Part shown: positions 4,672-41,587 of the stretch, in pieces
Layout of the letters: each line of letters starts with the position of its first letter
Numbering within the stretch: the stretch's first letter is position 1
Assembly: GCA_003225055.1 (NCBI GenBank)
Contig: QIAU01000140.1
Coordinates: forward strand, 1-61,690
Reading direction: 5' to 3'
DNA length: 61,690 bases
From: Acidobacteriota bacterium
Lineage (GTDB): Bacteria > Acidobacteriota > Terriglobia > Terriglobales > Acidobacteriaceae
The notes under the pieces: model-generated
The model's database searches: none
Told to the model about the DNA's origin: nothing
What the model saw: the letters and a program-made list of their open reading frames with translations, nothing else
Translations under genes and position numbers: made by a program

Positions 4672-5057
4672 TTCTGCCTCGAGCGGGCCTTCCGACCAGA
4701 TAAATGTAAAGCACCAAGCAAGGCTGGTGATGAGCACCTTGCGCGAGATAATTTAACGCTGTGAAGCAGCACTTGCAGCCTCTGCAGGCCCTAACGGGCA
4801 AACGGCTCTTTGCCTGGGAACAACGTTTGGACCAATAGACTGGATTTTAGCGCTACGTTGTGGCGGTAGTGCGAGGCTAATTAGGGGTAACCAAACTCAT
4901 CAAGGTTACCGAGGTGCAATGTCTTAGGTTAGGCCATTGCGTTTGTGGCCACGGGTCTCGGACTCAAGCAGGCGGAGACCCGCCTACACACGATTCTTGG
5001 GCTAAATTGCCGGGTAGCAATGCTGAACGATAAACTGTCGTAGCCTTAGCGTCCTTT
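4672..5057. other. Intergenic region upstream of tRNA-Leu
   Basis: No supportable protein gene. It contains a 7-bp inverted repeat (GGGTCTC...GAGACCC) in the 4950-4985 region and must hold the tRNA promoter. Confidence 0.5.
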
Positions 5058-5146
5058 GCCCGGGTGGCGAAACTGGCAGACGCACGGGACTTAAAATCCC
5101 GGGTCCCGAAAGGGACGTATCGGTTCGATTCCGATCCCGGGCACCA
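5058..5146 (+). tRNA. tRNA-Leu (anticodon TAA), CCA encoded
   Basis: Acceptor arms GCCCGGG (5058-5064) and CCCGGGC (5136-5142) pair perfectly, followed by discriminator A and an encoded CCA. The anticodon loop is CTTAAAA (anticodon TAA, Leu), there is a long class II variable arm (GGTCCCGAAAGGGAC), and the T loop is GGTTCGATTCC. All parts expected of a functional leucine tRNA are present. Confidence 0.96.
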
Positions 5147-6161: not shown

Positions 6162-6677
6162 ATGAAGTTTTCGTTTGAGAGAGGACTTGCTTCGTCTTTT
6201 GTGCTCGCAGTGCTATTCGCGGGATTCGTGTCAGTCGGGGAAACAGCTCAGGGCCAAACCTTGTTTTTAAAGGAAGGCGGCTCGATCACCGCAATCAAAA
6301 CTTCCAATGGAGATATCACGACGCGGGCAGACTCTTACTTCAATACTGTGTCGCAGGCGTTTTCCCGGCAGAAAGAGTGTTCGACGGTAAAGCTGCAACA
6401 GAATAACGCCAACTTCACAGTCCAATTCTACGTCGCCCACCTGCTCGAGCAGTACACGGTTAGCTATGTGGTGGTCAACAAGTCAGGGGCGGTCATCACT
6501 ACGGCCAGCACGAATTCGATTCCGGACGCGGCAGAGAAAATTTGTGAGTTGATTAGACCCCCCAAAGTGTCCCGTCTTCCCAAATGTCCGCCTAGTGTCA
6601 AGGGCGCAAAGAGCAGAGCCTGTGATCCGGACGACGCGGATGTCAGAAGAGGTCGGAGAGGGATGTCGTACTACTGA
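6162..6677 (+). CDS. Secreted protein of unknown function
   Basis: ATG 6162 is preceded by AGGAGG at the right distance, and the product opens with a signal peptide (about 30 residues, ending near GETAQGQ). The 171-residue protein then has one compact region with two Cys (SRQKECSTVKL and AEKICELI) that could form a disulfide, and a basic, Pro/Cys-containing tail. Residues about 40-130 look like one small alpha/beta domain (YTVSYVVVNKSGAVITTAST). No family recognised. The isolated position gives no clue to its job. Confidence 0.7.
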   Translation: MKFSFERGLASSFVLAVLFAGFVSVGETAQGQTLFLKEGGSITAIKTSNGDITTRADSYFNTVSQAFSRQKECSTVKLQQNNANFTVQFYVAHLLEQYTVSYVVVNKSGAVITTASTNSIPDAAEKICELIRPPKVSRLPKCPPSVKGAKSRACDPDDADVRRGRRGMSYY

Positions 6678-6825
6678 TCGTTTGCAAATCTGCAGACGAT
6701 TGGATCAGATGGACGAAGTCCATCTCTGATGGCGCGTCGATTTCACCCGCGCCGCGCCGCAGCCCGGGAGGGATAGCGTCACAAGATGCATATCCCTCCT
6801 TCCCCGCCGGCAGGATCGGCTTCAT

Positions 6826-7008
6826 CTACTTGTTGTGGCGAGCCTCATCGAGATCTGGCGAGAGCGATAGGTTGCGCGATACCTTCTGCCGGTCCCCGGC
6901 AGAGCAATTTGCGCTTCTTCAGGTAAGCACACCCAGCTTGGGTAGAAGCCATTGGGTCAAGAATAGGTAGGCGGCGAAAATGCCGAGAAACCAGAAGAGA
7001 TCGGTCAC
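6826..7008 (-). CDS. Candidate small membrane selenoprotein (in-frame TGA), otherwise a 29-residue peptide
   Basis: GTG 7006-7008 follows AGGAAAAG at 8-9 nt. Codons 2-29 encode one hydrophobic membrane segment (LFWFLGIFAAYLFLTQWLL) ending PKLGVLT, then TGA at 6919-6921. The same frame continues for 30 codons (RSANCSAGDRQK onwards) to a TAG at 6826. On the mRNA, 23 nt after the UGA, is the GGA loop of a perfect 8-bp hairpin, UCUGCCGG/CCGGCAGA (6903-6896 with 6892-6885). Position, small loop and leading GG fit the published outline of bacterial SECIS elements. The hairpin lacks a U-run, so it is not a Rho-independent terminator. If TGA is a normal stop, this is simply a 29-residue membrane peptide. 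Selenocysteine use is my inference. Confidence 0.45.
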
Positions 7009-7341
7009 GCTTCTTTTCCTGTAATCGGTATTCGGGTTCGAAAGTATGCGGCTCAGAACTGCTATCGTCCCTATCAAGTCGGTGTCGTAGCTATTGGTTC
7101 GCCGGGCTATTCCATTCCCAACCCTACCCACGACTTACGTCGCGGGCTTTGTTTTGCGCCGTTTCGCGGCTCGGGACATTCGCTCTGGCTCTATCCAACG
7201 CGGACGAGCTATGGCACCGACGCCAACTGCACTGATTCCCATGCTATTAATAAGATCCGGTTCAGCTGAAATTATACATACTGCTTAGGTCAAAACGTAT
7301 TGCTGATGAGGTATTCGAGGTATTCAATCAGCCGGACTGGT
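7009..7341. other. Intergenic region
   Basis: No supportable gene. It lies between the start of the small minus-strand membrane ORF and the end of the PilZ regulator gene. I saw no clear promoter pair or terminator. Confidence 0.4.
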
Positions 7342-8508
7342 TCAAACCGGGAGGATCGTTTCTGGCTCGTCGACGGATTCTGAGCGGCGTTGCTTGCGGA
7401 GTTCATCCAGAAATTCGGCGGTGGGCAGGTTCGCCTTGTGCTCAAAGAGTTCCAGCAACGGGTCTTCGGCACTCTCGGCATTCAAGCCTTCTGCCATTTC
7501 CTCCAGTGCATCGGGGCTGACCAACTCCAGCCCTTCCGGTTCGACGAACAATTCCGGGATCACGCCCTTGCTCTCCATCAAGGTATGTATGAACTTTTCT
7601 ACTTCCTGGCGTTGCTCGGGAGTCCTCTGAATGAAAGCTACTCCCATGCCCACGTCTGGGTGCATCACACGCACCAGGCCTGTGGCATGCACTTCGAGTT
7701 CACCCACGCGCATGGATAATTCGACACGGGCCCGCACGGGAAAAGGTGAGGGGGTTTCGAGGTAGCATCCACCCAGGCTGAGGTCGGTCAGTTTGCAGCG
7801 TGACGGTGGGTCATCTTCGTCGCCTTCCGGTGAGTTCGCTTTCAGCCAGCTCTTCAATTGCTGGCGCGTGCCCGCCGGCAAATCGAGAAAACGGATTCCC
7901 GCCTGACCATTGGGATTTTCCCAAGCCAGTTCGGCTTCGGCTTCGATCAGCTGCTTCGAACCGGGAAGCTTAAATTGCAGGCGCATGGGTCCGCGATCGC
8001 GATGGCGCCGGGCCAAGCGGACTCCGATTCCGTCCTCGCTCAAATCAGAGCTGACCGTGCGTTCCAGTTCGATCGAATCGTTGGTCTTGAACTGATACAT
8101 GACTGGCATCTCGACCGGAATGCGCCCGGCTCGGCGGCGCTCGCACTTCATCAACGCCCGGGCCGCGCGGAAACTGGACTTGGCCCGCTCCGCAGATATC
8201 GGCTTGTAGAGGACAAAATGCGCGCCCAGCTCAAAAGCGCTACGGACATCGCTCTGGCAGTCAATAAGCGCTACTGCCACGGCATTCTTGTTGGAGGGTG
8301 CGGTGCGCGCAGCTTTAAGAATCTGTCCGGCAATTGCCGGGTTCTGACAATCGACAATAACGGCTTCGAATCTCCGCCGGCTCAGCTTCAGGCCGGCCAC
8401 TTCCGGATCGGAGCAATGCTCCATCGTGATTTCCAGGTCGTTGAGCACACGACGCAACACGCGCACGATCTTCTCGTCGGAGCACAACACCAGCGCTTGC
8501 AGATTCAT
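7342..8508 (-). CDS. Receiver-like protein with two PilZ domains
   Basis: ATG 8508 opens directly into a receiver-like fold (NLQALVLCSDEKIVRVLRR), so I prefer it to a longer frame; the product is 388 residues. Residues about 3-120 resemble a response-regulator receiver, with Asp in VIVDCQN and the conserved Lys in VLYKP. Two PilZ-like segments follow: RRRAGRIPVEMPV with SSDLSEDGIGV, then SRCKLTDLSLGGCYLE. PilZ domains bind cyclic di-GMP through RxxxR and DxSxxG motifs. The first segment has both; the second has DLSLGG with a weaker Arg motif. An acidic tail ends the protein. It probably couples a second-messenger signal to another protein, as no DNA-binding domain is visible. Confidence 0.8.
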   Translation of the reverse strand: MNLQALVLCSDEKIVRVLRRVLNDLEITMEHCSDPEVAGLKLSRRRFEAVIVDCQNPAIAGQILKAARTAPSNKNAVAVALIDCQSDVRSAFELGAHFVLYKPISAERAKSSFRAARALMKCERRRAGRIPVEMPVMYQFKTNDSIELERTVSSDLSEDGIGVRLARRHRDRGPMRLQFKLPGSKQLIEAEAELAWENPNGQAGIRFLDLPAGTRQQLKSWLKANSPEGDEDDPPSRCKLTDLSLGGCYLETPSPFPVRARVELSMRVGELEVHATGLVRVMHPDVGMGVAFIQRTPEQRQEVEKFIHTLMESKGVIPELFVEPEGLELVSPDALEEMAEGLNAESAEDPLLELFEHKANLPTAEFLDELRKQRRSESVDEPETILPV

Positions 8509-24390: not shown

Positions 24391-24888
24391 ATGCCTCTCG
24401 GGCCCGCTATCACTGATGTCGCACAACTTAAGAGCCATCCGGCGCTGGCCCGCATCTTGGCCTGGAAACCTGCTGCCGTCGAAGCCGCCAGATACGATCG
24501 CGACGAACTCACACTCTCGATCGAACGCTCCTTCATTCGCGACGTCTGCGCCCTGCTGCGCGATCAGGCGAAATGCCCGTTTAACTTCCTTTCTGACCTG
24601 ACTTGCGTGGACTGGTATCCCTCGGAACCTCGGTTTGAGGTTATCTACCAGCTACTCTCGATCCCGAACCGAGAGCGAGTACGGTTGAAAGTCCGCTTGA
24701 ACGGCAGTAGCCCGGTTGTGGAATCTGTCACTTCCGTGTGGCCCGCCGCTAATTTCTTTGAGCGGGAGGTTTTTGACCTCTTCGGGATCCGTTTCTCCGG
24801 ACATCCCTACCTGCGCCGCATCCAAATGCCAGAGGACTGGGAAGGCCATCCTTTGCGCAAGGACTACCCAGTGGAGGGCTACCGCTAG
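24391..24888 (+). CDS. nuoC: NADH-quinone oxidoreductase subunit C
   Basis: 165 residues of the 30-kDa subunit family, with CVDWYPSEPRFEVIYQLLSI, RLKVRLNGSSPVVESVTSVW and the signature FEREVFDLFGIRFSGHPYLRR near the C-terminus. It belongs to the peripheral Q module and contacts NuoB and NuoD. It abuts nuoA without a gap and lies 2 bp before nuoD, so translation is probably coupled. Not fused to nuoD as in enterobacteria. Confidence 0.95.
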   Translation: MPLGPAITDVAQLKSHPALARILAWKPAAVEAARYDRDELTLSIERSFIRDVCALLRDQAKCPFNFLSDLTCVDWYPSEPRFEVIYQLLSIPNRERVRLKVRLNGSSPVVESVTSVWPAANFFEREVFDLFGIRFSGHPYLRRIQMPEDWEGHPLRKDYPVEGYR

Positions 24889-24890
24889 CC

Positions 24891-26096
24891 ATGGCTCACC
24901 TGGCTCCAACCCCGAGGATTGAACCCGGTCAGGATCGCACCATGATCCTGAATATGGGCCCGCAGCACCCCTCGACTCACGGCGTGCTGAGATTGCTGCT
25001 GGAGATCGAGGGCGAGAACGTAGTCCGGATCATGCCGGACCTCGGATTTCTGCACACGGGAATCGAGAAAACCTGCGAAGCCAAGTTCTATCAACAGGTA
25101 GTGCCGCTCACCGACCGCATCGACTACCTCTGCCCCATGACCAACAATCTCTGCTATGTGCTGGCAGTAGAGAAGTTGCTGGGATTGGAGATCCCGCCGC
25201 GGGCGCAGTGGCTGCGCGTGATGCTGAATGAACTGACCCGGATCAACTCGCATCTGGTCTGGCTGGGCACGCACGCCATGGATATCGGCGCGCTGACCGT
25301 GTTCCTATACTGTTTCCGAGAACGCGAAGACGTGTTGCGGCTATTCGAAATGGTAAGCGGCCAACGGATGATGACCTCCTACTTCCGCATCGGGGGGGTG
25401 GCCCTGGAACCCCCGCTGGGATTCTTCGAGAAGGTGAAGGAATTCGCGGGCCGCTTCCCTGCCCGGGTGGACGAGTACGAAGATCTGCTCACCCATAATC
25501 CGATCTGGACGATGCGCACCAAGGGCGTGGCACGAATTACTGCCGAGGATGCCGTGGCTTTAGGCGCTTCTGGCCCAACGTTGCGCGGAAGCGGTGTGGA
25601 TTTTGATTTGCGGCGTGATATGCCCTACTCGAGCTACGAGAAATTCCAATTCAAAGTGCCGGTCGCAACCGAAGGCGACGTTTTTGCCCGGTACATAATT
25701 CGCGTGCAGGAGTTGCGAGAGTCGATTGCCCTCGTGAGGCAAGCGCTGGACGGCATGCCGGAAGGCCCGACCAAGGCAGACGCGCCCAAAGTTGTGCTGC
25801 CCGACCGCGAAAAGATGAAGACGCAAATGGAGGCGATGATCTATCACTTCAAGATCATCACCGAGGGCTTCACGGTGCCGGCGGGCGAGGTTTATCAGGC
25901 CGTGGAATCGCCGCGCGGTGAAATGGGTTACTACGTGGTGAGCGATGGTACCGCCAAGCCATATCGAGTGCACATGCGCTCCGCCTGCCTCGCGAATCTT
26001 CAGACCTTGCCGAAGATGTGCGAAGGGCGTTTGATTGCCGACGTGGTCGCCGCGATTGGCAGCATCGATATTGTGCTGGGTGAGATCGATCGGTAG
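24891..26096 (+). CDS. nuoD: NADH-quinone oxidoreductase subunit D
   Basis: 401 residues of the 49-kDa subunit family. MILNMGPQHPSTHGVLRLLL supplies the His and loop that bind the quinone headgroup; PDLGFLHTGIEKTCEAK, FREREDVLRLFEMVSGQRMM and the C-terminal IGSIDIVLGEIDR are standard. It forms the quinone chamber together with NuoB, which is not encoded here. A dispersed repeat follows before nuoE. Confidence 0.97.
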   Translation: MAHLAPTPRIEPGQDRTMILNMGPQHPSTHGVLRLLLEIEGENVVRIMPDLGFLHTGIEKTCEAKFYQQVVPLTDRIDYLCPMTNNLCYVLAVEKLLGLEIPPRAQWLRVMLNELTRINSHLVWLGTHAMDIGALTVFLYCFREREDVLRLFEMVSGQRMMTSYFRIGGVALEPPLGFFEKVKEFAGRFPARVDEYEDLLTHNPIWTMRTKGVARITAEDAVALGASGPTLRGSGVDFDLRRDMPYSSYEKFQFKVPVATEGDVFARYIIRVQELRESIALVRQALDGMPEGPTKADAPKVVLPDREKMKTQMEAMIYHFKIITEGFTVPAGEVYQAVESPRGEMGYYVVSDGTAKPYRVHMRSACLANLQTLPKMCEGRLIADVVAAIGSIDIVLGEIDR

Positions 26097-26153
26097 AAAT
26101 GGGAGTGCCTTTTTTGCTTGCTTGGGCGCGATCGATCAAAGTCGTTCGTAGAC

Positions 26154-26243
26154 CACAGCCCCGGAGGGTGAAATAGGTTACCCCGGGGCATAAGCCCTGG
26201 GTAAGTTCAAAAAGATGGAACAAGCCCGGTAGGGGTGGCCCTA
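26154..26243 (+). repeat. Dispersed palindromic repeat between nuoD and nuoE
   Basis: The segment reads CAGCCCCGGAGGGTGAAATA, then a hairpin of TTACCC...GGGC-ATAA-GCCC...GGGTAA (about 26178-26204), and ends AAGCCCGGTAGGGGTGGCCC next to the nuoE ATG. This pattern (GCCCCGGAGGGG...CATAAGCCC...) matches, to my knowledge, families of dispersed intergenic repeats in Acidobacteriota. Its AGGGG supplies the only visible ribosome site for nuoE. Confidence 0.6.
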
Positions 26244-26244
26244 A

Positions 26245-26739
26245 ATGAAATTATCGGATCAATTCGAACAACGCTTCCATGCGATGATCAACCATTATCC
26301 GACCAAGCGTTCGGTGCTCGTTCCCAGCCTGCTTTATGCGCAAGACGAGCTGGGCTACCTGACCGACGAACTCATCGCGGAAATGGCCCAGCGGCTCGAT
26401 CTTACTGATCTGGAAATCCGCAACGTGATCAGCTACTACTCGATGCTCACCACCCAGCCGCGTGGAAAATTCAACGTGCAGGTCTGCACCAATATTGCCT
26501 GCATGCTGCGCGGCGGCGAGGAGATTCTCGATCACTGCAAGAGGAAACTGGGAATCGGTCATAAAGGCACAACGCGCGACGGGTTGTTCTCTTTGGAGGA
26601 AGTCGAATGCATTGGCGCTTGCAGTTGGGCGCCCGCGGCACAGGTCAACTACGACTTCCACGAAAATCTGACGCCGGAGAGGATGAACGAAGTTTTACAG
26701 GACTACAGGAGAAAAGTGCACCAGCAGGAAAATTGCTGA
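26245..26739 (+). CDS. nuoE: NADH-quinone oxidoreductase subunit E
   Basis: 164 residues of the 24-kDa family, a thioredoxin-like domain binding the N1a [2Fe-2S] cluster. The four Cys lie in VQVCTNIACMLRGG and VECIGACSWAPAAQVN (C-x4-C and C-x3-C). It forms the NADH-oxidising module with NuoF. The AGGGG upstream of the start lies in the dispersed repeat. nuoF begins 49 bp downstream after a simple spacer. Confidence 0.96.
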   Translation: MKLSDQFEQRFHAMINHYPTKRSVLVPSLLYAQDELGYLTDELIAEMAQRLDLTDLEIRNVISYYSMLTTQPRGKFNVQVCTNIACMLRGGEEILDHCKRKLGIGHKGTTRDGLFSLEEVECIGACSWAPAAQVNYDFHENLTPERMNEVLQDYRRKVHQQENC

Positions 26740-26788
26740 TTCCTGAACCGAAAACGGGTAATCAGCAATCAGAAATCAGAAATGAACC

Positions 26789-28108
26789 ATGGCTGATCTG
26801 GTTTCCCATCCCGACGAGGTAAAGATCGTCTCCAAGCGCTTCGGCCAGGGGGCGACCGATATCGATCGCTACCTCGAGCTCGACGGCTACAAGGCCGTGC
26901 AAAAAGCGCTTGGCATTGGGCCTGACGCGCTCATCAACGAGGTGAAGAACTCGGGTCTGCGGGGACGGGGCGGCGCCGGATTTAACACCGGCATGAAATG
27001 GTCGTTCGTTCCCAAGCAATCACCCAGGCCGAAATACGTGCTCTGCAACGGCGACGAGAGCGAACCCGGCACCTGCAAGGACCGCCTGATTTTCGAGCAC
27101 GACCCGCATTCGGTCATCGAGGGGGTGGTGATTGCCGGTCTGTCGGTCGAATCCCACGTCGGCTACATCTACATCCGCGGCGAGTACCGATATTTGTCGA
27201 ACATCATGCAGAAGGCAATCAAGGATGCCTATGCACGCGGGTTTCTGGGCAAGAACATTTTCGGCAGCGGCTATGATTTCGATGTGTACTGGCACGGAGG
27301 CGCAGGCGCTTACGAAGTGGGCGAAGAGTCAGCCCTGATGGAGTCGTTGGAAGGTAAGCGAGGCATTCCTCGGATCCGTCCTCCCTTCCCCGCCGTCGTG
27401 GGCCTCTGGGGCGGCCCTACCATCATTAATAATGCTGAGACTTTGGCCAGCGTCCCGCACATCATTCTGGGCGGCGCCGAGTGGTATGCCAGTCTGGGAC
27501 CGCCGAGAAACGGTGGCACGCGCCTGTTTTGCCTGAGCGGCCATGTGGCGCGTCCGGGCGTTTACGAACTGCCTATGGGCTACAACTTGAAAAAGATGAT
27601 TTATGAAGTGGCGGGCGGCATCGCTGATGGCCGGCGACTCAAGGCAGTCGTACCGGGCGGTGCCTCGACTCCCTGTCTTACCGCCGAGGAAGTTGATGTA
27701 CCTATGGATTTCGACTCGTTGATGAAAGCGGGCTCGATGCTGGGTTCCGGTGGGGTGGTCGTGCTCGATGACAGCACGTGCATGGTGAAATTTGCCCTGC
27801 GTACCATGCAGTTCTACCAACACGAGAGCTGTGGGTGGTGCATTCCCTGCCGCGAGGGCACGGATTGGCTGAAGAAGACGCTTGCCCGATTCCATGCCGG
27901 GGAGGGAGTTAAGAAGGACATCGACAACATCCAGTACCTGGCGGAAAACATGCTGGGCCGGACGTTCTGCCCGCTAGGAGACGCGGCCGCGATGCCGACG
28001 ATCGCCTTCATTAAGAAGTTCCGGAAGGAGTTCGAAGATCATCTCGAAGGCAGGCCATGCCCTTTTGAGAAGGAAGGCGTGGTGAAACAGCTGCCGGTAT
28101 TTGCCTAG
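26789..28108 (+). CDS. nuoF: NADH-quinone oxidoreductase subunit F
   Basis: 439 residues of the 51-kDa family, which binds NADH, FMN and the N3 [4Fe-4S] cluster. Seen are the Gly-rich RGRGGAGFNTGMKW, GDESEPGTCKDR, GEESALMESLEGKRG with PPFPA, and the cluster Cys in SCGWCIPCREGTDW and FCPLGDAA. One note: the usual Cys before GEE (YxCGEE) is Val here (YEVGEE). Entry point for electrons from NADH. A second repeat-like spacer separates it from nuoG. Confidence 0.97.
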   Translation: MADLVSHPDEVKIVSKRFGQGATDIDRYLELDGYKAVQKALGIGPDALINEVKNSGLRGRGGAGFNTGMKWSFVPKQSPRPKYVLCNGDESEPGTCKDRLIFEHDPHSVIEGVVIAGLSVESHVGYIYIRGEYRYLSNIMQKAIKDAYARGFLGKNIFGSGYDFDVYWHGGAGAYEVGEESALMESLEGKRGIPRIRPPFPAVVGLWGGPTIINNAETLASVPHIILGGAEWYASLGPPRNGGTRLFCLSGHVARPGVYELPMGYNLKKMIYEVAGGIADGRRLKAVVPGGASTPCLTAEEVDVPMDFDSLMKAGSMLGSGGVVVLDDSTCMVKFALRTMQFYQHESCGWCIPCREGTDWLKKTLARFHAGEGVKKDIDNIQYLAENMLGRTFCPLGDAAAMPTIAFIKKFRKEFEDHLEGRPCPFEKEGVVKQLPVFA

Positions 28109-28185
28109 TGCCGGCGTCTTGCCGGACCGATATCGAGGTGGAACGACAGCCTCACCGCCGCCGCAACGGCGGCGCCACGCAAGGG
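28109..28185 (+). repeat. Repeat-like palindromic spacer between nuoF and nuoG
   Basis: Contains the inverted pair GCCGGCGTC-TTGCCGGAC (about 28110-28127) and the hairpin CCGCCGCCGCAACGGCGGCG (about 28157-28176) around GAGGTGGAACGACAGCC. The arrangement resembles dispersed intergenic repeats of related genomes, different from the one at 26154. Family assignment is from memory. Confidence 0.5.
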
Positions 28186-28189
28186 ACTT

Positions 28190-30547
28190 ATGGCAGATGT
28201 AAACATTACGCTTGACGGCAAGAAGCTCACGGCGCCGGCCGGTACGCTGCTCATTGAGGCGTGCAAGAACGCGGGCATCGAGGTGCCGTCGTTCTGCTAT
28301 TACCCGGGCTTCTCGTTGCAGGGCGCCTGCCGCATGTGCCTGGTCAAAATCGAAAAAGTGCCCAAGCTGCAGACTGCCTGCACCACCGTGATCGGCGAGG
28401 GCATGATCGTCACCACCGATTCGCCCGAGATCCATCAAGCGCGCAAGTCTATGGTTGAACTTCTACTCGGCAACCATCCGCTCGACTGTCCGGTTTGCGA
28501 TGCCGGCGGCGAGTGCGAATTGCAGGACATGACTTTTGCGTATGGCGCGGCCGAGTCCAAGTACATCGATATCAAGAATCATCGCGAAGAGCAGCAGTGG
28601 TCTCCGGTCGTTTACTTCGATCGGCCACGCTGCATCCTGTGCTACCGCTGCGTGCGCGTTTGTGGCGAAGGTATGGACGTATGGGCGCTGGGCATACAGA
28701 ACCGCGGCGTGGCTTCGGTGATTGCGCCCAATAAAGAAGACCATCTCGAATGCGAAGAGTGTGGAATGTGCATCGACATCTGCCCGGTCGGGGCTCTTAC
28801 CTCGGGTGCGTATCGCTACAAGACTCGTCCCTGGGAGATGAAGCACATTGATACGACTTGCACTCACTGTGGCGACGGATGTAGGACGACCCTGGGCGTG
28901 CGCCGCGCCGACACCGGGATCGAGATTGTTCGCGGGGACAATCGTGACAAGAGCGGCATCAATGGAGATTTCCTCTGCATTAAAGGCCGCTACGCGTTCG
29001 ACTTTGTCGACAATGAACAACGCATTAAGCAGCCTCTGATCCGCAAAGACGGGCGGCTGACGCCCTCCTCGTGGGAAGAAGCGTTTGAACTGATCGGAAG
29101 ACGATTCGCGGAGATTTGTGGTCGAGAGGGCGGCCGAGCGATCGGGGTCATCGGTTCCAGCAAAACCAGCAACGAAGAGAACTACCTGCTGCAGAAGTTT
29201 GCCCGGGTGGTGCTCGGTACCAACAACATCGATCACCACCGCACCGGGGACTTCCCTGCTTTCGCTCGGGCTCTGGCCGGCAAGCTGGACGCCACGGCTA
29301 GCATGCGCGATGTCTTCAAGGCGCCAGCCATGCTAGTAATCGGTAATGATCCCACCAACCAGCATCCGCTGCTTGCGTGGCAGATTCGCAATAACGTGCG
29401 CTTGCATCGTTCGCGGCTGTATGTCATCAACTCGCAGCCCATTAAGTTGCGGCGGCAGGCAACGGCCTTCGCGCACATTCCCGCCGGTTCAGAAGCCAAG
29501 CTAGTCGCATTGCTTGCGGGAGACGACTCCGTGCTCGATGTGCTTGTGAGCGAGAACACCCCGCGCGAGGCGTTGCTTTCTCTGCGCGATAGGCTTCGCG
29601 GCGAGCAGAACCTGGTCATCATCTTTGGGGCGGAACTGCGCGGTGAGGAGATGGCTCGGTTGGTGAAGGTCGGCTCCGCTGTTTCCGGAGCAAAGTTCGT
29701 CTGCCTCGGCGACTACGCTAACTCGCGGGGAGCGGCTGACATGGGCCTCTATCCCGACCTGCTGCCCGGGTACTTGCCGGTAACTCAGGGGAAGACATTC
29801 CGGGAGGAGTGGGGCGGGCTACCGGATGCACCCGGCCTCACCATTCCGCAGATGGTCGACGCGGCCAAAGCCGGCCAACTCAAGGCGCTTTATGTAGTCG
29901 GCGCCAATCCGGTCGCGCGCTTCAACATCGACCCGTTCGCATTCGCAAAAAGTTTTGTCGTGATGCAGGACATGTTCCTGACCGAAACCGCTTTGATCGC
30001 CGACGTCGTTTTGCCGGGCGCCAATGCCTATGAGAAGTCCGGCACCTTTACGAACACCTGCGGTGATCTCCAGCTTTTGCGGAAAGCGGGCGAAGTAACC
30101 GGCACCAAACCCGACTTCGAAATCATAGTTCGCATCGCGGAGCGAATGGGGTTCGATGTCCGCAAGCTTGTCCCTTTCGGCGGCGGGATGTGGGCGGATA
30201 TGGGGCAGTCGCGGGGCGCGCAGTCGGGAGAAGCCGACCGCCACAGCGTGTGGCTGGAAGCTCACGGGCTGGAAACCAAGCTGAGTCCCTTTGATCCCAT
30301 GGCCATCCTCGATGAAATTCAGCGGCTGGTGCCGGGATACCATGTCTCACGCAGGACCTTGCTGTCGGGCACCGACCAGCACACCAGGATCGGTGGGCCT
30401 GGCATTCTGCACAATCCCGAACTGATTGTGCCCGCGAACGACGATTTATTCACTTCGGGCACGCTGGGACGCTATTCGCGCGCCTTGAACTCGGTACTCG
30501 AAAACCAGAGGCGCAAGCCGGTGGAGACGGAAGTTGCCGCCGACTAA
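28190..30547 (+). CDS. nuoG: NADH-quinone oxidoreductase subunit G
   Basis: 785 residues. The N-terminal ferredoxin domain (SFCYYPGFSLQGACRMCLVK) holds N1b; HPLDCPVCDAGGECELQDM carries the His/Cys ligands of N5; CILCYRCVRVC and CEECGMCIDICPVGAL hold N4-type Cys. A further C-x2-C-x3-C (CTHCGDGC) with a later FLCIKGRY forms the N7-type site of the molybdopterin-oxidoreductase-like domain that fills the rest. It is the large peripheral-arm subunit that relays electrons from NuoE/F toward NuoI/NuoB, neither of which is encoded here. Confidence 0.97.
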   Translation: MADVNITLDGKKLTAPAGTLLIEACKNAGIEVPSFCYYPGFSLQGACRMCLVKIEKVPKLQTACTTVIGEGMIVTTDSPEIHQARKSMVELLLGNHPLDCPVCDAGGECELQDMTFAYGAAESKYIDIKNHREEQQWSPVVYFDRPRCILCYRCVRVCGEGMDVWALGIQNRGVASVIAPNKEDHLECEECGMCIDICPVGALTSGAYRYKTRPWEMKHIDTTCTHCGDGCRTTLGVRRADTGIEIVRGDNRDKSGINGDFLCIKGRYAFDFVDNEQRIKQPLIRKDGRLTPSSWEEAFELIGRRFAEICGREGGRAIGVIGSSKTSNEENYLLQKFARVVLGTNNIDHHRTGDFPAFARALAGKLDATASMRDVFKAPAMLVIGNDPTNQHPLLAWQIRNNVRLHRSRLYVINSQPIKLRRQATAFAHIPAGSEAKLVALLAGDDSVLDVLVSENTPREALLSLRDRLRGEQNLVIIFGAELRGEEMARLVKVGSAVSGAKFVCLGDYANSRGAADMGLYPDLLPGYLPVTQGKTFREEWGGLPDAPGLTIPQMVDAAKAGQLKALYVVGANPVARFNIDPFAFAKSFVVMQDMFLTETALIADVVLPGANAYEKSGTFTNTCGDLQLLRKAGEVTGTKPDFEIIVRIAERMGFDVRKLVPFGGGMWADMGQSRGAQSGEADRHSVWLEAHGLETKLSPFDPMAILDEIQRLVPGYHVSRRTLLSGTDQHTRIGGPGILHNPELIVPANDDLFTSGTLGRYSRALNSVLENQRRKPVETEVAAD

Positions 30548-30586
30548 ACAACGCTGTCTCAACCCAGGTCAACCTAGGAACGCACT

Positions 30587-31624
30587 TTGAGCATTAGCAC
30601 TTTCGTGATCGTGTCCGTGATCAAGATTGTGATCGCGCTCGCCGTGTTGCTCACCTCTGTAGCCTACAGCGTCTGGCTGGAGCGCAAGGTCCTCGGACAC
30701 ATTCAGAACCGTTGGGGACCTTCCTATGTCGGTCCCTTTGGGCTGCTGCAGCCGCTTGCGGATGGGCTCAAATTCATTTTCAAGGAAGACCTGACGCCGC
30801 CGCACGTGCACAAGGCACTCTACATCGCGGCGCCTATGCTGTCGGTGATTTGCGCGGTAAGCTCCATTGCCGTGATCCCGATCGGCAATTGGGTGGATGT
30901 GGCGGGACTACACATTCCCTTGGAGATCACCGACGTCAACATCGGCCTGCTCGTCATATTGGGTATCACTTCGATGGGTGTGTATGGAGTCGCTCTGGCC
31001 GGGTGGTCCTCGAATAACAAATATTCGCTATTAGGTGGGCTGCGCGCCAGCGCGCAGATGGTGAGCTACGAAATATCACTCGGCTTGTCCCTGATTGGAG
31101 TACTGATCGTCTCGGGCAGCTTCAGCCTGCGCCAGATCGTGGACGCGCAGGGCGGGCGTTTTTGGGGATTCGTTCCGCGCTGGAACGTATTTCACGGCCA
31201 GGAAGTTGCCTTCTTTATCTATCTGATGTCGGCCTATGCCGAAACCAACCGCGTGCCCTTCGATTTGCCCGAGGCAGAAACGGAACTGGTCGCCGGCTAC
31301 CATACCGAATACAGCGCGATGAAGTTCGCCATGTTCTTCATGGCGGAGTACGCCAACATGATTACCGTGGGATGCCTGGCCACGCTGCTCTTCCTGGGCG
31401 GCTGGCACGGCCCGATTGTTGGTCCGCCCTTGGCGCGGGTGATCCTCCCGGTTTTCTGGTTTGGGTTGAAGGTTTTCGGTTTCATGATTCTGTACATCTG
31501 GGTGCGCGGCACGTTGCCGCGGTTCCGCTACGACCAGTTGATGGCCTTCGGTTGGAAGTTTCTGTTCCCGCTGGCGGTGGCGAACCTGGTGGTTACCGCG
31601 CTCGTGGTGGCAGTGAGAGCGTAG
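30587..31624 (+). CDS. nuoH: NADH-quinone oxidoreductase subunit H
   Basis: 345 residues from TTG 30587, with AGGAACGCAC just upstream; no ATG fits better. About eight membrane helices. WLERKVLGHIQNRWGPSYVG and PFGLLQPLADGLKFIFKED form the mouth of the quinone tunnel; YAETNRVPFDLPEAETELVA is the acidic loop. It links the peripheral and membrane arms. nuoI would normally follow but does not: the 75-bp gap to nuoJ holds no gene. Confidence 0.96.
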   Translation: MSISTFVIVSVIKIVIALAVLLTSVAYSVWLERKVLGHIQNRWGPSYVGPFGLLQPLADGLKFIFKEDLTPPHVHKALYIAAPMLSVICAVSSIAVIPIGNWVDVAGLHIPLEITDVNIGLLVILGITSMGVYGVALAGWSSNNKYSLLGGLRASAQMVSYEISLGLSLIGVLIVSGSFSLRQIVDAQGGRFWGFVPRWNVFHGQEVAFFIYLMSAYAETNRVPFDLPEAETELVAGYHTEYSAMKFAMFFMAEYANMITVGCLATLLFLGGWHGPIVGPPLARVILPVFWFGLKVFGFMILYIWVRGTLPRFRYDQLMAFGWKFLFPLAVANLVVTALVVAVRA

Positions 31625-31699
31625 GAAAGGTCTCAGGCGTCGGCTATCAGGGTTCAGGGTTTTTAGCCTGCGACTTGAAGACCGTCGACCGGAAAACTC

Positions 31700-32224
31700 A
31701 TGCTTCATCTTGCACTATTCTCGATCTTTGGCGCGATCTGTGTGGCGGGAGCGGTGAATGTGCTCATTCAGCGCCACCCCATCAATAGCGCGCTCTCGCT
31801 GATCGCGGTTCTCGCATCACTGGCGGTCGAGTACCTGCTGCTGGGCGCCGAGTTCCTGGCTGCGGTGCAGGTTATTGTCTATGCGGGCGCCATCATGGTG
31901 CTCTTCGTCTTCACCATCATGCTTCTCAACGCCGGAGAAGAAGAGCGCACGCGCGGCAGCCGGGTGGCAATTGTCTTTGGGATCCCCGGCATGTTGGTGG
32001 GCGGCATTCTTGTAGCTTGGGCGCTGTTGCGTTATTCGGGAACGGGTCCGGTCTCGGTGGGTGTGCTACCCGGCCCCCCCAACACGATCGCACAACTCCT
32101 GTTCCACGATTTCCTACTCCCCTTCGAAGTCACCTCATTGCTCATCCTGATTGCGATCATGGGCGCGGTTGTCCTGGCCAGAGGTGAGGAGACACCCCGC
32201 CCTGCTACCAAGGAGCAAGGCTGA
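31700..32224 (+). CDS. nuoJ: NADH-quinone oxidoreductase subunit J
   Basis: 174 residues, five membrane helices. [20 protein letters not shown] and [20 protein letters not shown] contain the conserved helix-3 pi-bulge region that helps couple quinone chemistry to proton pumping. Ends in a short polar tail. Its TGA overlaps the nuoK ATG (TGATG), so the two are translationally coupled. Confidence 0.95.
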
Positions 32225-32526
32225 TGGTTCCACTTTCTTACTACCTGGTGCTGAGCGGCATCCTGTTTGCCTGCGGTGTTACCGGATTTCTGATCAAGCG
32301 CAACATTATTACGATCTTCATGTCGATTGAGTTGATGCTCAATGGCGTGAATCTGTCGTTCGTTGCCTTCGCTGCCCGCTGGCACGCGTTAAGGGGACAA
32401 GTGTTTGTCTTTTTTGTCATGGTCGTTGCGGCTGCCGAGGCGGCGGTTGGACTAGCCATCATCATTGCCGTCTATCGCACCCGCGAGACTTTGAACGTGG
32501 ATCAAATGAATCTACTCAAACTATGA
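32224..32526 (+). CDS. nuoK: NADH-quinone oxidoreductase subunit K
   Basis: 100 residues, three membrane helices, the usual size. The conserved membrane Glu residues lie in [19 protein letters not shown] and [19 protein letters not shown], and form part of the proton path between NuoH and NuoN. Overlaps nuoJ (TGATG) and nuoL (ATGA). Confidence 0.96.
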
Positions 32527-34556
32527 CGGCCAACCTGCACCTTTGGCTCATTCCGGCATTGCCGTTAATCGGCGCCGCCAGCAACGGCTTGATGGGGCGA
32601 CGCTCGTCTCGGCGGGCAGTCTCGTTCATTGCGCTAGTGTTTTGCGGCGGAGCCTTCGCCTGGGCGCTTTACGTCGCCTCCCGCTTCTCTTCCTTAACCC
32701 TTCCACACGCGGAGACTTTGGGTCCTTGGATCCGCGTGGGCGGTTTCAGCGCCGACTTCGCCTTCTATCTTGACCCGCTCTCGTTGATAATGCTGCTGGT
32801 TGTCACCGGCGTTGGCTTTCTCATTCATATCTATTCGATCGGCTACATGTGGGAAGAGGGCGGGTATTACCGGTTTTTCTCCTACCTGAATCTGTTCATG
32901 TTCTTCATGCTGACGCTGGTATTGGCGGACAACTATCTGCTGCTGTTCATTGGCTGGGAGGGGGTCGGCTTGGCGTCGTACCTGCTGATCGGATTCTGGT
33001 TTACGAAGGACTCGGCAGCGTCGGCGGGCAAGAAAGCATTCATCGTTAACCGTATCGGAGACTTCGGCTTCCTGATCGGTCTCTTCCTTTTGATCAAGCA
33101 TTTCGGTTCGCTGAACTTTGATCGCGTGTTTCCTCCAGTTGCGCAGATGAAGGCGGAAACGGCGGGAGCCGGATGGGTAACGGCGATCGGCCTGCTGCTC
33201 ATGGTAGGGGCGGCGGGAAAATCAGCGCAGCTGCCCCTCTATGTCTGGCTGCCCGACGCCATGGAGGGACCGACTCCTGTCTCAGCCCTGATCCACGCGG
33301 CCACCATGGTGACCGCCGGCGTTTACATGGTGGCGCGCTCTCACGTGATCTACGAGCGCGCTCCGGAGGCCCTGACCCTGGTGGCGATTGTAGGCGTGCT
33401 CACCGCCTTGTTCGCGGCCACAATCGGCGTTGCGCAAACCGATATCAAGAAAGTTCTCGCTTATTCCACCATTTCGCAGCTCGGCTACATGTTCCTGGGT
33501 TGCGGCGTGGCTGCCTTCTCGGCCGGCATCTTTCACCTGATGACGCACGCCTTCTTTAAGGGCCTGCTGTTCCTCGCAGCAGGATCGGTAATCCATGCTT
33601 TAGGCGGCGAACAGGACATGCGGCGAATGGGAGGTTTGCGGCACCACATCCCCTGGACCTTTTGGACCATGACGGTGGCTACTCTCGCGATTGCGGGCAT
33701 ACCGCCGCTGGCGGGCTTCTTCAGCAAGGACGAAATCCTGTGGCGCGCCTACCAGGCGAGTTGGATCTATTGGCTGATCGGGGTCTCTACCGCTTTTCTG
33801 ACATCATTTTACATGTTCCGCCTGCTGTTCCTGACCTTCTTCGGTGAATATCGCGGTGCGGTCGCGGCGGGCCCGGAACACGGTCGAGGTCACGGGCTCC
33901 ACGATGCTCCCGGCCATGGCGGACACGGCCACATTCATGAGAGTCCCACGGTGATGCTCTTGCCTCTGGTGATTCTGGCAATACTTTCCCTAGCCGGCGG
34001 ATGGGTTGGAATCCCAGGGTCGCTGGGGGGGGGAAATCGTTTCGACAAATTCCTTGCGCCCGTGTTCGACACGACGGCGATTGCTCAGAATCGGGAACAT
34101 GCGGTTCCGGGAGAGCAGGTCCCGCCTGAAAGCGAAGGACCCGCGACAGAGACCGGACGGGGCACGGAGTTGATGTTCACCGGCGTTTCGGTGGCGGCAG
34201 CCGCGCTGGGGCTTCTCCTCGCCTGGCTGCTGTATCTGCGCAATCCGGAGCTACCCCAAAAGATTGCCGACGCCCTGGGCGGATTCTACGGGGCCGTTCT
34301 CAACAAGTACTACGTGGATGAGCTCTATGCCGTTCTCTTCGTCAAGCCACTCGTCGACGGCTCGGCAAGAATTCTGTGGCAAGCAATGGACCAGGGAGTG
34401 ATCGATCGCACCATTAACGACGGCGCCGACGGCGCCCGCCATCTCTCCGACAATGTCCGGCACATGCAGTCCGGAAACCTGCGCTCCTATGCGGGGTGGG
34501 TGGCGGCAGGAGCCGCGGTGGTCATCGCCTACATGGTGTGGACGGGGCTGCGATGA
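32523..34556 (+). CDS. nuoL: NADH-quinone oxidoreductase subunit L
   Basis: 677 residues, an antiporter-like subunit with some 14-16 membrane helices and a long C-terminal part that forms the lateral helix. Key segments: [20 protein letters not shown] with the pumping Glu, and [20 protein letters not shown] with the conserved His. One loop is strikingly His-rich ([20 protein letters not shown], around residue 460), which is unusual in length but common as a lineage feature. Starts in ATGA with nuoK, ends in ATGA with nuoM. Confidence 0.96.
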
Positions 34557-36067
34557 ATATCGAAACCCTCAGCCCGTTCGTATTGAGTCTGATCACGTTC
34601 GTTCCCGCGGGAGGCGCACTGTTGCTGGTTTTATTTCCGCGGCGTGACCGGGATATTCGCCTGTTCGCGCTCGTCGTCTCGCTACTCGCCTTCATTCTCT
34701 CGCTGCATCTTCCGGCGCATCTGGTTCGCAGCCAGCCTGGCTTCCAATTCGAAGTCAACAGCCAATGGATCACGAGCCCCAATATTCACTACCACATGGG
34801 CGTCGACGGCTTCTCCCTGTGGCTGGTGCTGCTGACGACGTTTCTGACGCCGCTGTGCGTCCTGATCTCATGGCGTATTCACGATCGGGTGAAGGAGTTC
34901 TTTGTCCTGCTGCTGGTGCTGGAGACGGCACTGATCGGCGTGTTCACTGCGCTTGATCTGTTCCTCTTCTATTTCTTCTGGGAAGCCACGCTGATCCCCA
35001 TGGCCCTGCTCATCGGCATCTTCGGGCACGAACGGCGGGTCTACGCTGCCGTCAAATTCTTCCTGTTTACGATGATTGCGTCTGTATTTATGCTGGCAGC
35101 AATTTTGTGGCTCTACGCCAAAGTCGGCAGCTTCGATTTTGTTACGATCCAGAACGCGATCCGCACTGGCCAGGTTTCGAACTTCGCTGCCGCTTCTCTC
35201 TGGCTTTTCCTCGGATTTTTCGCTGCCTTCGCTGTGAAAGTGCCGCTGTTCCCGCTCCACACCTGGTTACCCGATGCGCACGTGGAAGCGCCCACCGCCG
35301 GTTCGGTGCTGCTGGCCGGTGTTCTGCTGAAGATGGGCACCTACGGCATGTTGCGCTTTAACTTGGGCCTATTCCCCGAGCAATCTCGGCGCAATGCCCC
35401 GTGGATTATGGCGTTGGCTCTGATGGGCATCATTTATGGCGCGCTGGTTGCCATGGTGCAGCCCAACCTGAAGAAGCTGATCGCCTACTCCTCGATCAGC
35501 CATCTCGGCTTCGTGGTGCTCGGCATATTCAGCTTCACGGGTGCGGGGTGGGACGGCGCCATGTTCGTTATGCTGGCTCACGGCATCTCGACGGGCGCTC
35601 TGTTTATGCTGGCGGGTATTCTTCACGAGCGCCGCCATACCTACGCGATTCGCGAGTTCGGCGGCCTGGCCACGCCCATGCCGATTTACGCTGCGCTCTT
35701 CTTATTTATGGTTCTGTCCTCGGTTGGACTGCCACTGCTCAATGGCTTTGTCGGCGAGTTTCTGGTGCTTAGCGGAACGTTTCGCGCCCATCCGGTCTAT
35801 GGGATTTTGGGCGCCACTGGCGTTATCTGGAGCGCCTGTTACCTGCTGTGGATGTACCAGCGTGTCTTCTTCGGCAAAGTCACCCAGGAAGCAAATAGCA
35901 CACTCGAGGACCTCAACCTATTCGAGCGCGCTGCTCTGTGGCCAACCATCGTGATGGCATTGCTGATGGGAGTTGCGCCCTTGCTCTGGCTGGGTGTTAT
36001 CGATCCCGCCGTCCGGAACGCGCTGGAGCCGTTGGCGCGAGTTGCCAGCAAAATGGTGGGGCAATGA
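34553..36067 (+). CDS. nuoM: NADH-quinone oxidoreductase subunit M
   Basis: 504 residues from ATG 34553, in the ATGA overlap with nuoL. Antiporter-like subunit with about 14 helices. The hallmark FWEATLIPMALLIGIFGHER carries the pumping Glu; VPLFPLHTWLPDAHVEAPTA and LIAYSSISHLGFVVLGIFSF hold the Lys/His channel residues. Each antiporter-like subunit is thought to move one proton per NADH. Overlaps nuoN by ATGA. Confidence 0.96.
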   Translation: MNIETLSPFVLSLITFVPAGGALLLVLFPRRDRDIRLFALVVSLLAFILSLHLPAHLVRSQPGFQFEVNSQWITSPNIHYHMGVDGFSLWLVLLTTFLTPLCVLISWRIHDRVKEFFVLLLVLETALIGVFTALDLFLFYFFWEATLIPMALLIGIFGHERRVYAAVKFFLFTMIASVFMLAAILWLYAKVGSFDFVTIQNAIRTGQVSNFAAASLWLFLGFFAAFAVKVPLFPLHTWLPDAHVEAPTAGSVLLAGVLLKMGTYGMLRFNLGLFPEQSRRNAPWIMALALMGIIYGALVAMVQPNLKKLIAYSSISHLGFVVLGIFSFTGAGWDGAMFVMLAHGISTGALFMLAGILHERRHTYAIREFGGLATPMPIYAALFLFMVLSSVGLPLLNGFVGEFLVLSGTFRAHPVYGILGATGVIWSACYLLWMYQRVFFGKVTQEANSTLEDLNLFERAALWPTIVMALLMGVAPLLWLGVIDPAVRNALEPLARVASKMVGQ

Positions 36068-37551
36068 GCGGCTTGCCGCAGACTGCTGACTACGTTCGCA
36101 TCTTGCCGGAACTGGTGTTGTCCATCTTCGGTATCGTCGTCATGTTGCTGGAGCCGCTCTTCGATGAGCGCCGTAGTCAGAGAACGCTGGGCAGCATTGC
36201 ACTGATTGGCTCTCTGGTGGCTATCATGGCGTCCGTGTTTCAGGCACAGAATCCCGGGTTCGCCTTCTGGAACATGGTGCGCGTGGACGGGTTCAGCGTG
36301 TTTTTCCACGTGCTGGTCACGACCATTGCCGCCGTTGTGATTCTCACCTCCTACGAGTACATGTCGGTGCAGCGCATTCGTGCGGGGGAATACTACGGGT
36401 TGATTCTGTTTGGCACCGTTGGCATGTGCCTGATGTCGTCAGCCGTTGAACTGGTGCTGATCTTCATCGCGCTCGAAATCTCCTCGATCTCGACCTACAT
36501 TCTGGCCGGATTTCGGCGCCGCGAGGCCGCCAGCAGTGAAGCGTCCCTCAAATATTTCCTGCTCGGGTCTTTTGCCACCGCCTTCTTCTTGTACGGGGTA
36601 GCACTGATGTTCGGTGCCACCGGGTCGACCAATATCGACAAGATCAGCCCGGCACTCGAGCAAAGTACGGTGCCCCCGCTGGCCTACCTGGCCGTGGCGC
36701 TGATGTTTGTTGGCCTAGGATTCAAAGTGGCGTCCGCGCCCTTCCACATCTGGACCCCTGATGTCTACGAAGGGGCCCCGGCTCCCATCGTCGGCTTCAT
36801 GTCCACAGCACCCAAAGCAGCCGCCTTCGCCGTTCTGCTGCGCATCTTGTTTGAGGCCAATGCTCCCGGACGCTTCTGGCTGATCTGGTTTTCTGCGGTG
36901 CTCTCGATGTGTTTGGGCAATCTTGGAGCTCTGGTGCAGACCAACGTCAAGCGGCTTCTGGCTTACTCATCGATTGCCCACGCCGGTTACCTGCTGGTGG
37001 CCTTTGCCGCCGCGCCCGAGGTCGGCGTGTCCGCCGCAATGTTCTATACGGCTGCGTATGCTGCTATGAACGTAGGCGCGTTTGCCGTCATCAGCCACTT
37101 TGCCAACGCAGGAGAGAAGTACGTCACGCTCGATGATTATGCGGGGCTGGGGCGGCGCTCTCCCGTGCTTGCGGCCACTCTGACCATCTTCTTGTTGTCG
37201 TTGATCGGAATTCCGGCGACCGGCGGATTCTTCGCCAAATTCTATGTCTTCAGTGCAGCCTTGAAGGCGGATCTGGTCGGATTAACAATAATCGGCGTGA
37301 TCAACAGCGCGGTGGCCGCATACTACTACTTGCGCATCATCGTGGTCATGTACATGCGCGAAAGCCGTGAAGAGATCCCCGTGAGGGGAATCCCGCTAGG
37401 GCTCGGAACCGCTTTGGTCGTGAGCCTCGCCGCAACCATCTATTTGGGAGTGCTTCCTGGCCGTGTGCTCGACTATGCTCTCGCGTCCGCGAATCAGCTG
37501 ATGCAGACGCCGGCTTCCGCCGCTGCCGCCACCGTGAATCCAGGACGTTAG
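36064..37551 (+). CDS. nuoN: NADH-quinone oxidoreductase subunit N
   Basis: 495 residues from ATG 36064 (ATGA overlap with nuoM). Third antiporter-like subunit, with LVLIFIALEISSISTYILAG (pumping Glu), KVASAPFHIWTPDVYEGAPA and LLAYSSIAHAGYLLVAFAAA. Last gene of the operon. No Rho-independent terminator is evident in the 16 bp before the convergent ABC permease gene. Confidence 0.96.
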   Translation: MSGLPQTADYVRILPELVLSIFGIVVMLLEPLFDERRSQRTLGSIALIGSLVAIMASVFQAQNPGFAFWNMVRVDGFSVFFHVLVTTIAAVVILTSYEYMSVQRIRAGEYYGLILFGTVGMCLMSSAVELVLIFIALEISSISTYILAGFRRREAASSEASLKYFLLGSFATAFFLYGVALMFGATGSTNIDKISPALEQSTVPPLAYLAVALMFVGLGFKVASAPFHIWTPDVYEGAPAPIVGFMSTAPKAAAFAVLLRILFEANAPGRFWLIWFSAVLSMCLGNLGALVQTNVKRLLAYSSIAHAGYLLVAFAAAPEVGVSAAMFYTAAYAAMNVGAFAVISHFANAGEKYVTLDDYAGLGRRSPVLAATLTIFLLSLIGIPATGGFFAKFYVFSAALKADLVGLTIIGVINSAVAAYYYLRIIVVMYMRESREEIPVRGIPLGLGTALVVSLAATIYLGVLPGRVLDYALASANQLMQTPASAAAATVNPGR

Positions 37552-39561: not shown

Positions 39562-40236
39562 TCACACCTGCATTCGATTGGCATAGATCGCCATTCCCAC
39601 CACGGCGTCAACGCTCATAGCGCTCAATTGGTCGACCTCGTCGGAGCTGGTAATGCCGCCGGCAACGATCAATTGCCTGCTTGTTGCCGCGCGTAACTCG
39701 CGCACCACCTCCATGGAGATTCCCTGCATCAGGCCCTCGCCGTCAATGTGCGTGTAGAGGAAAGCGCCGCACCACGGTTCTAGGGCGGTAATCATGGCGC
39801 GTGGGGTCAACTCTGTGAGTTGCTGCCAACCACGGATGGCGACTCTCCCTTGCCGAGAATCCACGGCAAAGACCAGCTTCTCCCGGCCTAGAGCGGACGC
39901 GCCTGCTTCGGCAAACGGGCAATTGATTTTCCCTTCCCGTACCAGGGTTGAGCCAAAAATTACCCGCCGCGCGCCTGACGCCAGCATTGCTTTCGCCGTT
40001 TCGAGCGAGCGAATTCCGCCACCCACCTGGCAGGGCAGGCGATGGGTCAGCTGTTTCACGAGCACGCGGTTGTCTCCCGTGCCCATCGCGGCATCCAGAT
40101 CGATTAGTTGCACCAGGGGGTATGAAGAAAAGCGAGCAATCCATTCTTCAAAGTTATCAAACTCGAGAGCTTTCCTTTCTCCCTGGACGAGCTGAACAAT
40201 CTTGCCGCCCATGAGGTCAATGGAAGGGATCAGCAC
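39562..40236 (-). CDS. hisA: Phosphoribosylformimino-5-aminoimidazole carboxamide ribotide isomerase
   Basis: 224 residues, a (beta-alpha)8 barrel of the HisA/HisF family. It begins [20 protein letters not shown] with the first catalytic Asp and has the phosphate-binding [16 protein letters not shown] and [31 protein letters not shown] holds the second acidic residue. HisA converts ProFAR to PRFAR by an Amadori rearrangement. Last gene of the operon, overlapping hisF by seven bases. Slightly short for HisA (usually about 240). Confidence 0.92.
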
Positions 40237-41000: not shown

Positions 41001-41587
41001 AGACGGCGGAAATTCTCCAGAATTCGTAGACCGACTGGTCCGGATTTTTCGGGGTGGAATTGGACACCGAATAACTGATCGCGCTCCACCACGGCGGAAA
41101 AGGCACCTCCGTACTCGCATTCCGCAACCGTCCCCTCCACGATGGGAGCCCGGTACGAGTGGGTAAAATACACGCACGAGTCGGGATCAATACCCTGCAG
41201 AAGGCGCGACGAACTCCGCAAGCGCAGCGTGTTCCACCCCACATGCGGTGACTTGACCTCGGTTGGAAAGCGCTCGCATTGACCGGTGAACAGGCCCAAG
41301 CCGTGCGTCTCAGGTGCTTCCGCACTGGACTCGAACATCCATTGCATGCCTACACAAATTCCGAGAAAAGGCTTGCCGCGCTGAATGGCGGCTTCCACTG
41401 CACCTTGCAACCCCAATTGGCCAAGTATTCTGGTGGCGGAGAAGTGACCCACTCCTGGCAATACGACCTTCTCTGCGCGCGCAACCTGGTTCGGATCTGA
41501 GGTCACCACCGAGTCCGCCCCGACGAAATCCAGAGCCTTCTTGACCGAAGTCAGATTTCCAGCCCGGTAATCGACAATTGCGATCAT
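40997..41587 (-). CDS. hisH: Imidazole glycerol phosphate synthase, glutamine amidotransferase subunit
   Basis: 196 residues from ATG 41587 ([19 protein letters not shown]). A class I glutamine amidotransferase with nucleophile Cys in [15 protein letters not shown] and the His-x-Glu pair in [24 protein letters not shown] forms the oxyanion-side loop. It makes ammonia for HisF. The start overlaps the hisB stop (TAATG) and its end overlaps hisF (ATGA). Confidence 0.95.

Follow-up and report, generated by a model that had tools for sequence, protein, structure and literature searches.

The window is the whole stretch of DNA analysed here, 61,690 nucleotides long, and it forms contig C7 of a 7.4-Mb genome that is 98.7% complete. 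On its minus strand lies a short gene that the first-pass annotation had proposed as a candidate small membrane selenoprotein, a one-helix open reading frame that continues for 30 codons past a TGA and carries a U-x4-C arrangement. Retranslation of 7008..6826 (minus), with TGA read as U, gives exactly U-R-S-A-N-C and a product of 60 residues. The product reads VTDLFWFLGIFAAYLFLTQWLLPKLGVLT-U-RSANC… across the TGA; in full it is VTDLFWFLGIFAAYLFLTQWLLPKLGVLTURSANCSAGDRQKVSRNLSLSPDLDEARHNK, with 30 residues after U, followed by a stop. The features of the locus are as follows.

6826..7008, minus strand: the very probable selenoprotein gene, 60 residues with U at position 30, GTG start at 7008 and stop at 6826-6828.
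7017..7020, minus strand: AGGA, a candidate ribosome-binding site proposed from the sequence, 8 nt 5′ of the GTG.
6937..7005, minus strand: a predicted single membrane helix, residues 2-24; in the AlphaFold2 prediction the helix blocks have a pLDDT of about 91-92 and the tail is low.
6919..6921, minus strand: the in-frame TGA, the proposed selenocysteine codon; relatives cross a TGA in the same frame, and a Cys codon takes this place in L024/G077, L198 and L203.
6904..6906, minus strand: the Cys codon at U+5 (U-x4-C), a position held by Cys in most family sequences.
6885..6903, minus strand: a SECIS-like hairpin with an exact Watson-Crick stem of 8 bp (5′ arm 6903-6896, 3′ arm 6892-6885) and a GGA loop at 6893-6895.

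A mechanical list of open reading frames starts the gene further up, at 7131. The GTG at 7008 is favored because 140 of 203 family sequences have a start codon at the equivalent place, codon -29 relative to U. In the AlphaFold2 model, a single helix over residues 2-24 is followed by a tail of low confidence, and the mean pLDDT is 73. In 178 of the 192 family members with a recognized start, the C-side flank of the helix carries more positive charge than the N-side flank; the tail is therefore predicted to be cytosolic, with the Sec near the membrane surface. The product is thus predicted to have one membrane helix with the N terminus out and the tail in the cytosol, a topology derived from charge. 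Animal selenoproteins K and S are small, span the membrane once and carry Sec in a cytosolic tail. The product described here resembles them in its size, its one predicted helix and the predicted cytosolic position of its Sec; in selenoproteins K and S the Sec is near the C terminus, whereas in this family it is predicted to be close to the membrane.

The hairpin, TCTGCCGG-GGA-CCGGCAGA, starts with its stem at the 16th nucleotide after the UGA and with its loop at the 24th, leaving 23 nt in between; the perfect 8-bp hairpin with a GGA loop described earlier was reproduced exactly upon recomputation. The 54-nt stretch has a folding energy of -21.2 kcal/mol, compared with -14.2 (SD 2.4) for shuffled sequences (z -2.9; 2 of 200 shuffles as stable). 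The hairpin had been described as having no U-run, and a terminator search of 6500-7400 found no terminator-like site; the terminator reading was rejected. Elsewhere in the window, a tRNA-Leu (TAA anticodon) at 5058-5146 on the plus strand obtains a weak score, under the cut-off, with the tRNA-Sec model. By eye from the list of open reading frames, a respiratory complex I operon spans 24391-37551 and a histidine biosynthesis operon 39562-45350.

Absence of selC or selB from the genome had been named beforehand as a refuting result, and it was not what was found: the genome encodes SelA, tRNA-Sec (69.4 bits), SelB (79.1 bits) and SelD (347.8 bits). The SelD gene, which lies outside the window (G000:C256:82082-83050, L272), matches its family over positions 1-309 of 311 across one in-frame TGA, and SelD of this genome is itself probably a selenoprotein.

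When 100 relatives were searched with the protein, 17 matches, among them that of the window, had E values no higher than 0.0107, and 17/17 cross exactly one TGA. The relatives that cross this TGA have in common the motif LP[KR]xGVPT-U-x-S-x-x-C. The next candidate (G050, E 0.0118) proved on inspection not to be a relative, and neither L023 nor the weak first-search matches (E 0.035 or worse) were counted in the family. The sole genome of the same genus that was searched (G001) gave no convincing match (E 1.04). A 16-row profile was then compared with 396 genomes of the window's phylum; 99 match at E 0.01 and 92 of them cross a TGA, in a type of search that favors sequences resembling the starting ones. 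The remaining seven comprise a Cys form (G077), a match that ends before reaching the TGA (G383) and five others that are weak (E 7.2e-4 or more), one of which (G257) crosses two TGA codons. In the phylum of the Desulfobacteraceae MAG G486, 297 genomes were compared and 124 have a match at E 0.001; in 121 it crosses a TGA, and three have only matches that end before its position.

Other phyla were covered with a pattern, W-x-[LF]-P-[K/R and others]-x-G-x-P-T followed by TGA, TGC or TGT, applied to a collection of species genomes. At least 116 stretches with at least 117 matches were found; among the matches listed, 115 have TGA and two have Cys (L198 and L203). A match in Aliidiomarina (L228) fits the pattern, looks like chance and was left out. 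Family members with TGA thus number 114 of the 117 matches listed, or 114/116 without L228. The matches listed come from Acidobacteria, Deltaproteobacteria, Syntrophobacteraceae, Planctomycetota, Myxococcota, Spirochaetes, Armatimonadetes, Rokubacteria, Calditrichaeota, KSB1, Zixibacteria, Cyanobacteria (Obscuribacterales), SAR324, Riflebacteria, Verrucomicrobiales, Krumholzibacteriota, Kuenenia and others. Judged by its sequences, a family of tiny, predicted membrane selenoproteins is present in many bacterial phyla. A contig from Myxococcales (L261) has two copies of the gene, at 1972-2124 and 4827-4979, about 2.9 kb apart. A tblastn search of plasmids with a made-up family consensus gave no match.

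One objection is that the UGA is an ordinary stop, so that the locus encodes a 29-residue one-helix microprotein and both the hairpin and the downstream similarity are incidental. The standard code does end the frame at the UGA, and one-helix microproteins are a known kind of protein. The family sequences argue otherwise. The pattern allowed three codons at the position, and TGA occupies it in all but two of the 116 family matches listed. The prospect of homologues that end at the TGA, raised in the first-pass annotation, was not borne out: in 203 of 203 distinct members with TGA, the frame after U is open for at least 10 codons (median 26; three end-cut stretches), while the 10th percentiles of the other two frames are 0 and 4 open codons. 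Cys is conserved at U+5 (144/203; absent in 59/203) and Arg at U+10 (123/203), and Trp or Tyr is found at U-16 in 200/203, all positions that lie outside the collecting pattern; P-7, G-4, T-1 and U were fixed by the pattern that collected the 203, and W-10 and P-2 partly so. In 30 close pairs, which are not independent of one another, 71 of the single-base codon differences after U are synonymous and 88 are not, with 81/159 in the third position. These differences point to a synonymous excess downstream of U.

Replacement of U by Cys bears on the same question. Such homologues had been suggested as a check; they are rare, and three were found: G077 (L024; E 0.017), which reads GTCMSGAC, L198 and L203. 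The Cys form of L198 comes from Planctomycetaceae, and its genome does have a SelB match. The Cys form L093 (G077:C1) lies between genes that, named by eye, resemble those for a CoA-disulfide reductase and a PIG-L/BshB-like deacetylase.

The hairpin is also a property of the family. In 199 family sequences, the mean score of the best hairpin is 17.9, compared with 9.8 (SD 3.3) after codon shuffling and with 10.6 and 9.9 in control regions of the same sequences, just upstream and further downstream, respectively; 75% of the sequences score at least as high as the shuffles do at their 95th percentile. The family hairpin is more than chance. The commonest loops among the 199 are GTC (63), GGTC (24) and GGA (21), and 72/199 start at nucleotide 24. 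For covariation, 67 sequences were chosen from the 199 by a 3-nt loop at nucleotide 24 and at least five pairs. In these 67, a choice that inflates pairing, 90.7% of the positions in the 8-bp stem form standard pairs, compared with 69.1% after shuffling and 24%–43% when the stem is slid by one to three columns. Compensatory double changes occur at 8/8 stem pairs. The G at the first loop position, which the choice did not select, is invariant (67/67). One of the five covariation measures is unremarkable, the number of further pair types being 20 compared with 18.3, with 78 of 500 shuffles as high. RNAalifold, unprompted, recovers the inner seven pairs of the stem.

SelB is commoner in genomes with the TGA form. 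The C-terminal wing of SelB was detected in 286 of the 396 genomes of the window's phylum, in 87/92 TGA carriers compared with 199/304 other genomes (Fisher p 2e-9, kinship ignored). In the desulfobacterial phylum the counts are 114/121 and 144/176 (Fisher p 0.0016, kinship ignored). In a separate check of 21 genomes, SelB was found in 17 of 18 TGA carriers but in only one of the three Cys carriers, with no match in G077 or in the genome of L203. Some TGA carriers have no SelB match (5/92 and 7/121), including G461 and G151, listed as 97% and 99% complete, as might be expected if the UGA were an ordinary stop. Nevertheless, with the frame open in every TGA member, the conserved Cys, the synonymous excess, the covarying hairpin and Cys in place of U in three relatives, termination at this UGA is very improbable. 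The UGA at 6919-6921 is almost certainly read as selenocysteine. The original proposal of a small membrane selenoprotein is supported by the Sec machinery, the open and conserved frame, the Cys forms and the covarying SECIS stem.

The family is absent from the searchable selenoprotein catalogues and models. None of 60 members matches NCBIfam release 20 (June 2026) up to E 0.1. Searches of Pfam with 16 and with 60 members gave no significant match, only stray ones (best E 0.015), and neither PF11127 (YgaP-like TM) nor PF00581 (rhodanese) is among them. One of 60 members has a single match in PHROGs (E 2.9e-4). Table 1 of a 2026 review has 119 bacterial selenoprotein families or subfamilies (PMC13188914), and the window family, with U-x4-C after LP[KR]xGVPT, corresponds to none of them in name and Sec motif. 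Nor does it correspond to any of the families of Haft and Tolstoy (2025), as represented in that table and in NCBIfam; a mention in the 2025 work itself is possible. For one acidobacterium, the deep-Sep report gives three known and no new selenoproteins (PMC12013277). A literature search for the string LGVPTU found no paper. The window family shares with the bacterial selenoproteins of that table an in-frame UGA, a SECIS element just downstream, Cys homologues and an expected dependence on SelA/B/C/D; it differs from them in having no fitting name or motif listed there, no NCBIfam match and no significant Pfam match (PMC13188914). It would thus be a new family of a known kind, in which a single-helix microprotein is unusual among catalogued bacterial selenoproteins. 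We consider it very likely that the locus encodes a genuine selenoprotein and that its family is uncatalogued, a confidence that concerns identity and anatomy and does not extend to the substrate.

Clues to function come from the neighboring genes, which were picked by a home-made open reading frame rule and counted by Pfam. In the window's phylum the scan took in genes on the same strand, 81 of 85 lying upstream and 52 of 60 downstream; in other phyla, 41 of 42 and 36 of 38; and in the desulfobacterial set, 80 of 80 on both strands. By eye, the unscanned neighbors looked spurious, in the wrong frame or very long, and the window's own downstream open reading frame is one of them. In the set from the window's phylum and relatives, a same-strand open reading frame ends no more than 313 nt before codon -29 in 82/101 loci, and within 10 nt in 38/101. 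The 81 upstream genes include YgaP-like TM (12), rhodanese (9), ArsR (8), DUF302 (7), TauE (4), RND (3) and OsmC (2), and the 52 downstream genes DUF302 (12), FmdB-type zinc ribbons (Zn_ribbon_8; 7) and thioredoxin-like or redoxin families (up to 3 each). In records from outside the Acidobacteria, the 41 upstream genes include ABC transporter (4), thioredoxin (3), DUF302 (2), zinc ribbon (2), YgaP TM (2) and MerR (2), and the 36 downstream genes DUF302 (3), thioredoxin (2-3), zinc ribbon (2) and ArsR (2). The 80 desulfobacterial neighbors include zinc ribbon (9), peptidase S11 (5), glyoxalase (4), thioredoxin (3) and MerR (3); neither DUF302 nor rhodanese figures in their best 25 families. The FmdB-type zinc ribbon is the most frequent direct neighbor in this set (L285-L324), at 9/80.

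DUF302, at 19 of 133 scanned neighbors, is by our estimate far above chance, because there is about one copy per genome (21 copies in 23 carriers, some of these genomes having been picked since DUF302 had already been seen there). The window's genome has no copy of DUF302. The window gene itself has no neighbors of these recurrent kinds; it adjoins, by eye, a PilZ/response-regulator-like gene and a convergent gene of unknown function, and this copy seems to stand alone.

One functional reading of these neighborhoods is that the selenoprotein is a small accessory subunit of an RND or other efflux system, with the selenol as a ligand for a soft metal or metalloid. In 27/101 loci there is an RND permease at a distance of 4 kb or less, and the ArsR-type regulators upstream and the MerR-type neighbors in the other sets would fit. 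However, the other 74 loci showed none over that distance, although for many loci the sequence covered was shorter than 4 kb, and ArsR regulators can sense sulfur species too; we regard this role as distinctly unlikely. A selenoprotein acting in the membrane as a general reductase of thiols, disulfides or peroxides, as opposed to a sulfane-sulfur protein, is a stronger candidate, if still a doubtful one. Thioredoxin-type genes and FmdB-type zinc ribbons are found in all three neighbor sets, and OsmC is found upstream in 2/81. On the other hand, the genes that recur upstream in the window's phylum are YgaP-like TM, rhodanese, DUF302 and TauE. Moreover, a thioredoxin fold was not found in the one-helix AlphaFold2 model, Pfam gave no thioredoxin match, and a search of PDB sequences gave nothing up to E 1.

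Taken together, the DUF302, YgaP-like TM, rhodanese, ArsR, TauE, thioredoxin and FmdB-type zinc ribbon neighbors lead us to propose, tentatively, that the protein takes part in redox reactions of sulfane sulfur or thiols at the membrane. In E. coli, YgaV is a sulfide-responsive ArsR-type regulator and YgaP an integral membrane sulfurtransferase (PMC9774250; PMC4730233). Genes for YgaP-like TM, rhodanese and ArsR proteins, analogous to that pair as described in these sources, recur beside the selenoprotein gene, although the family members themselves match the models of neither YgaP-like TM nor rhodanese. In the preferred account, the UGA is very probably decoded as selenocysteine by SelA, SelB and tRNA-Sec, directed by the hairpin. 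The product of ∼60 residues has one predicted membrane helix, with, judging from charge, its N terminus out and a cytosolic tail, and places the selenol ∼6 residues beyond the predicted end of the helix, with a Cys usually five residues further. Much more tentatively, at the inner membrane surface the selenol could react with sulfane sulfur (persulfide or polysulfide) or with disulfides. A selenenylsulfide might then form with the U+5 Cys or with the thiol of a partner, such as a DUF302, YgaP-type or thioredoxin-like protein, and thioredoxin-like proteins may reset the selenol.

The family occurs in 92/396 and 121/297 genomes of two phyla and in more than ten other groups, yet it is uncatalogued. 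It is possible, and we suggest it with reserve, that this is among the more widespread bacterial selenoproteins, overlooked because the gene resembles a 29-codon open reading frame. It would carry a single-helix selenol devoted to persulfide or polysulfide chemistry at the inner membrane in about 23% of the genomes sampled from the window's phylum and 41% of the desulfobacterial ones, and would perhaps be one reason why such lineages keep the Sec trait. If so, selenoproteome counts would need revision, and small Sec genes whose frames the standard code cuts short would be a blind spot. Selenium would also be linked, in a testable way, to the sulfane-sulfur metabolism of bacteria in soil and in the sulfur cycle.
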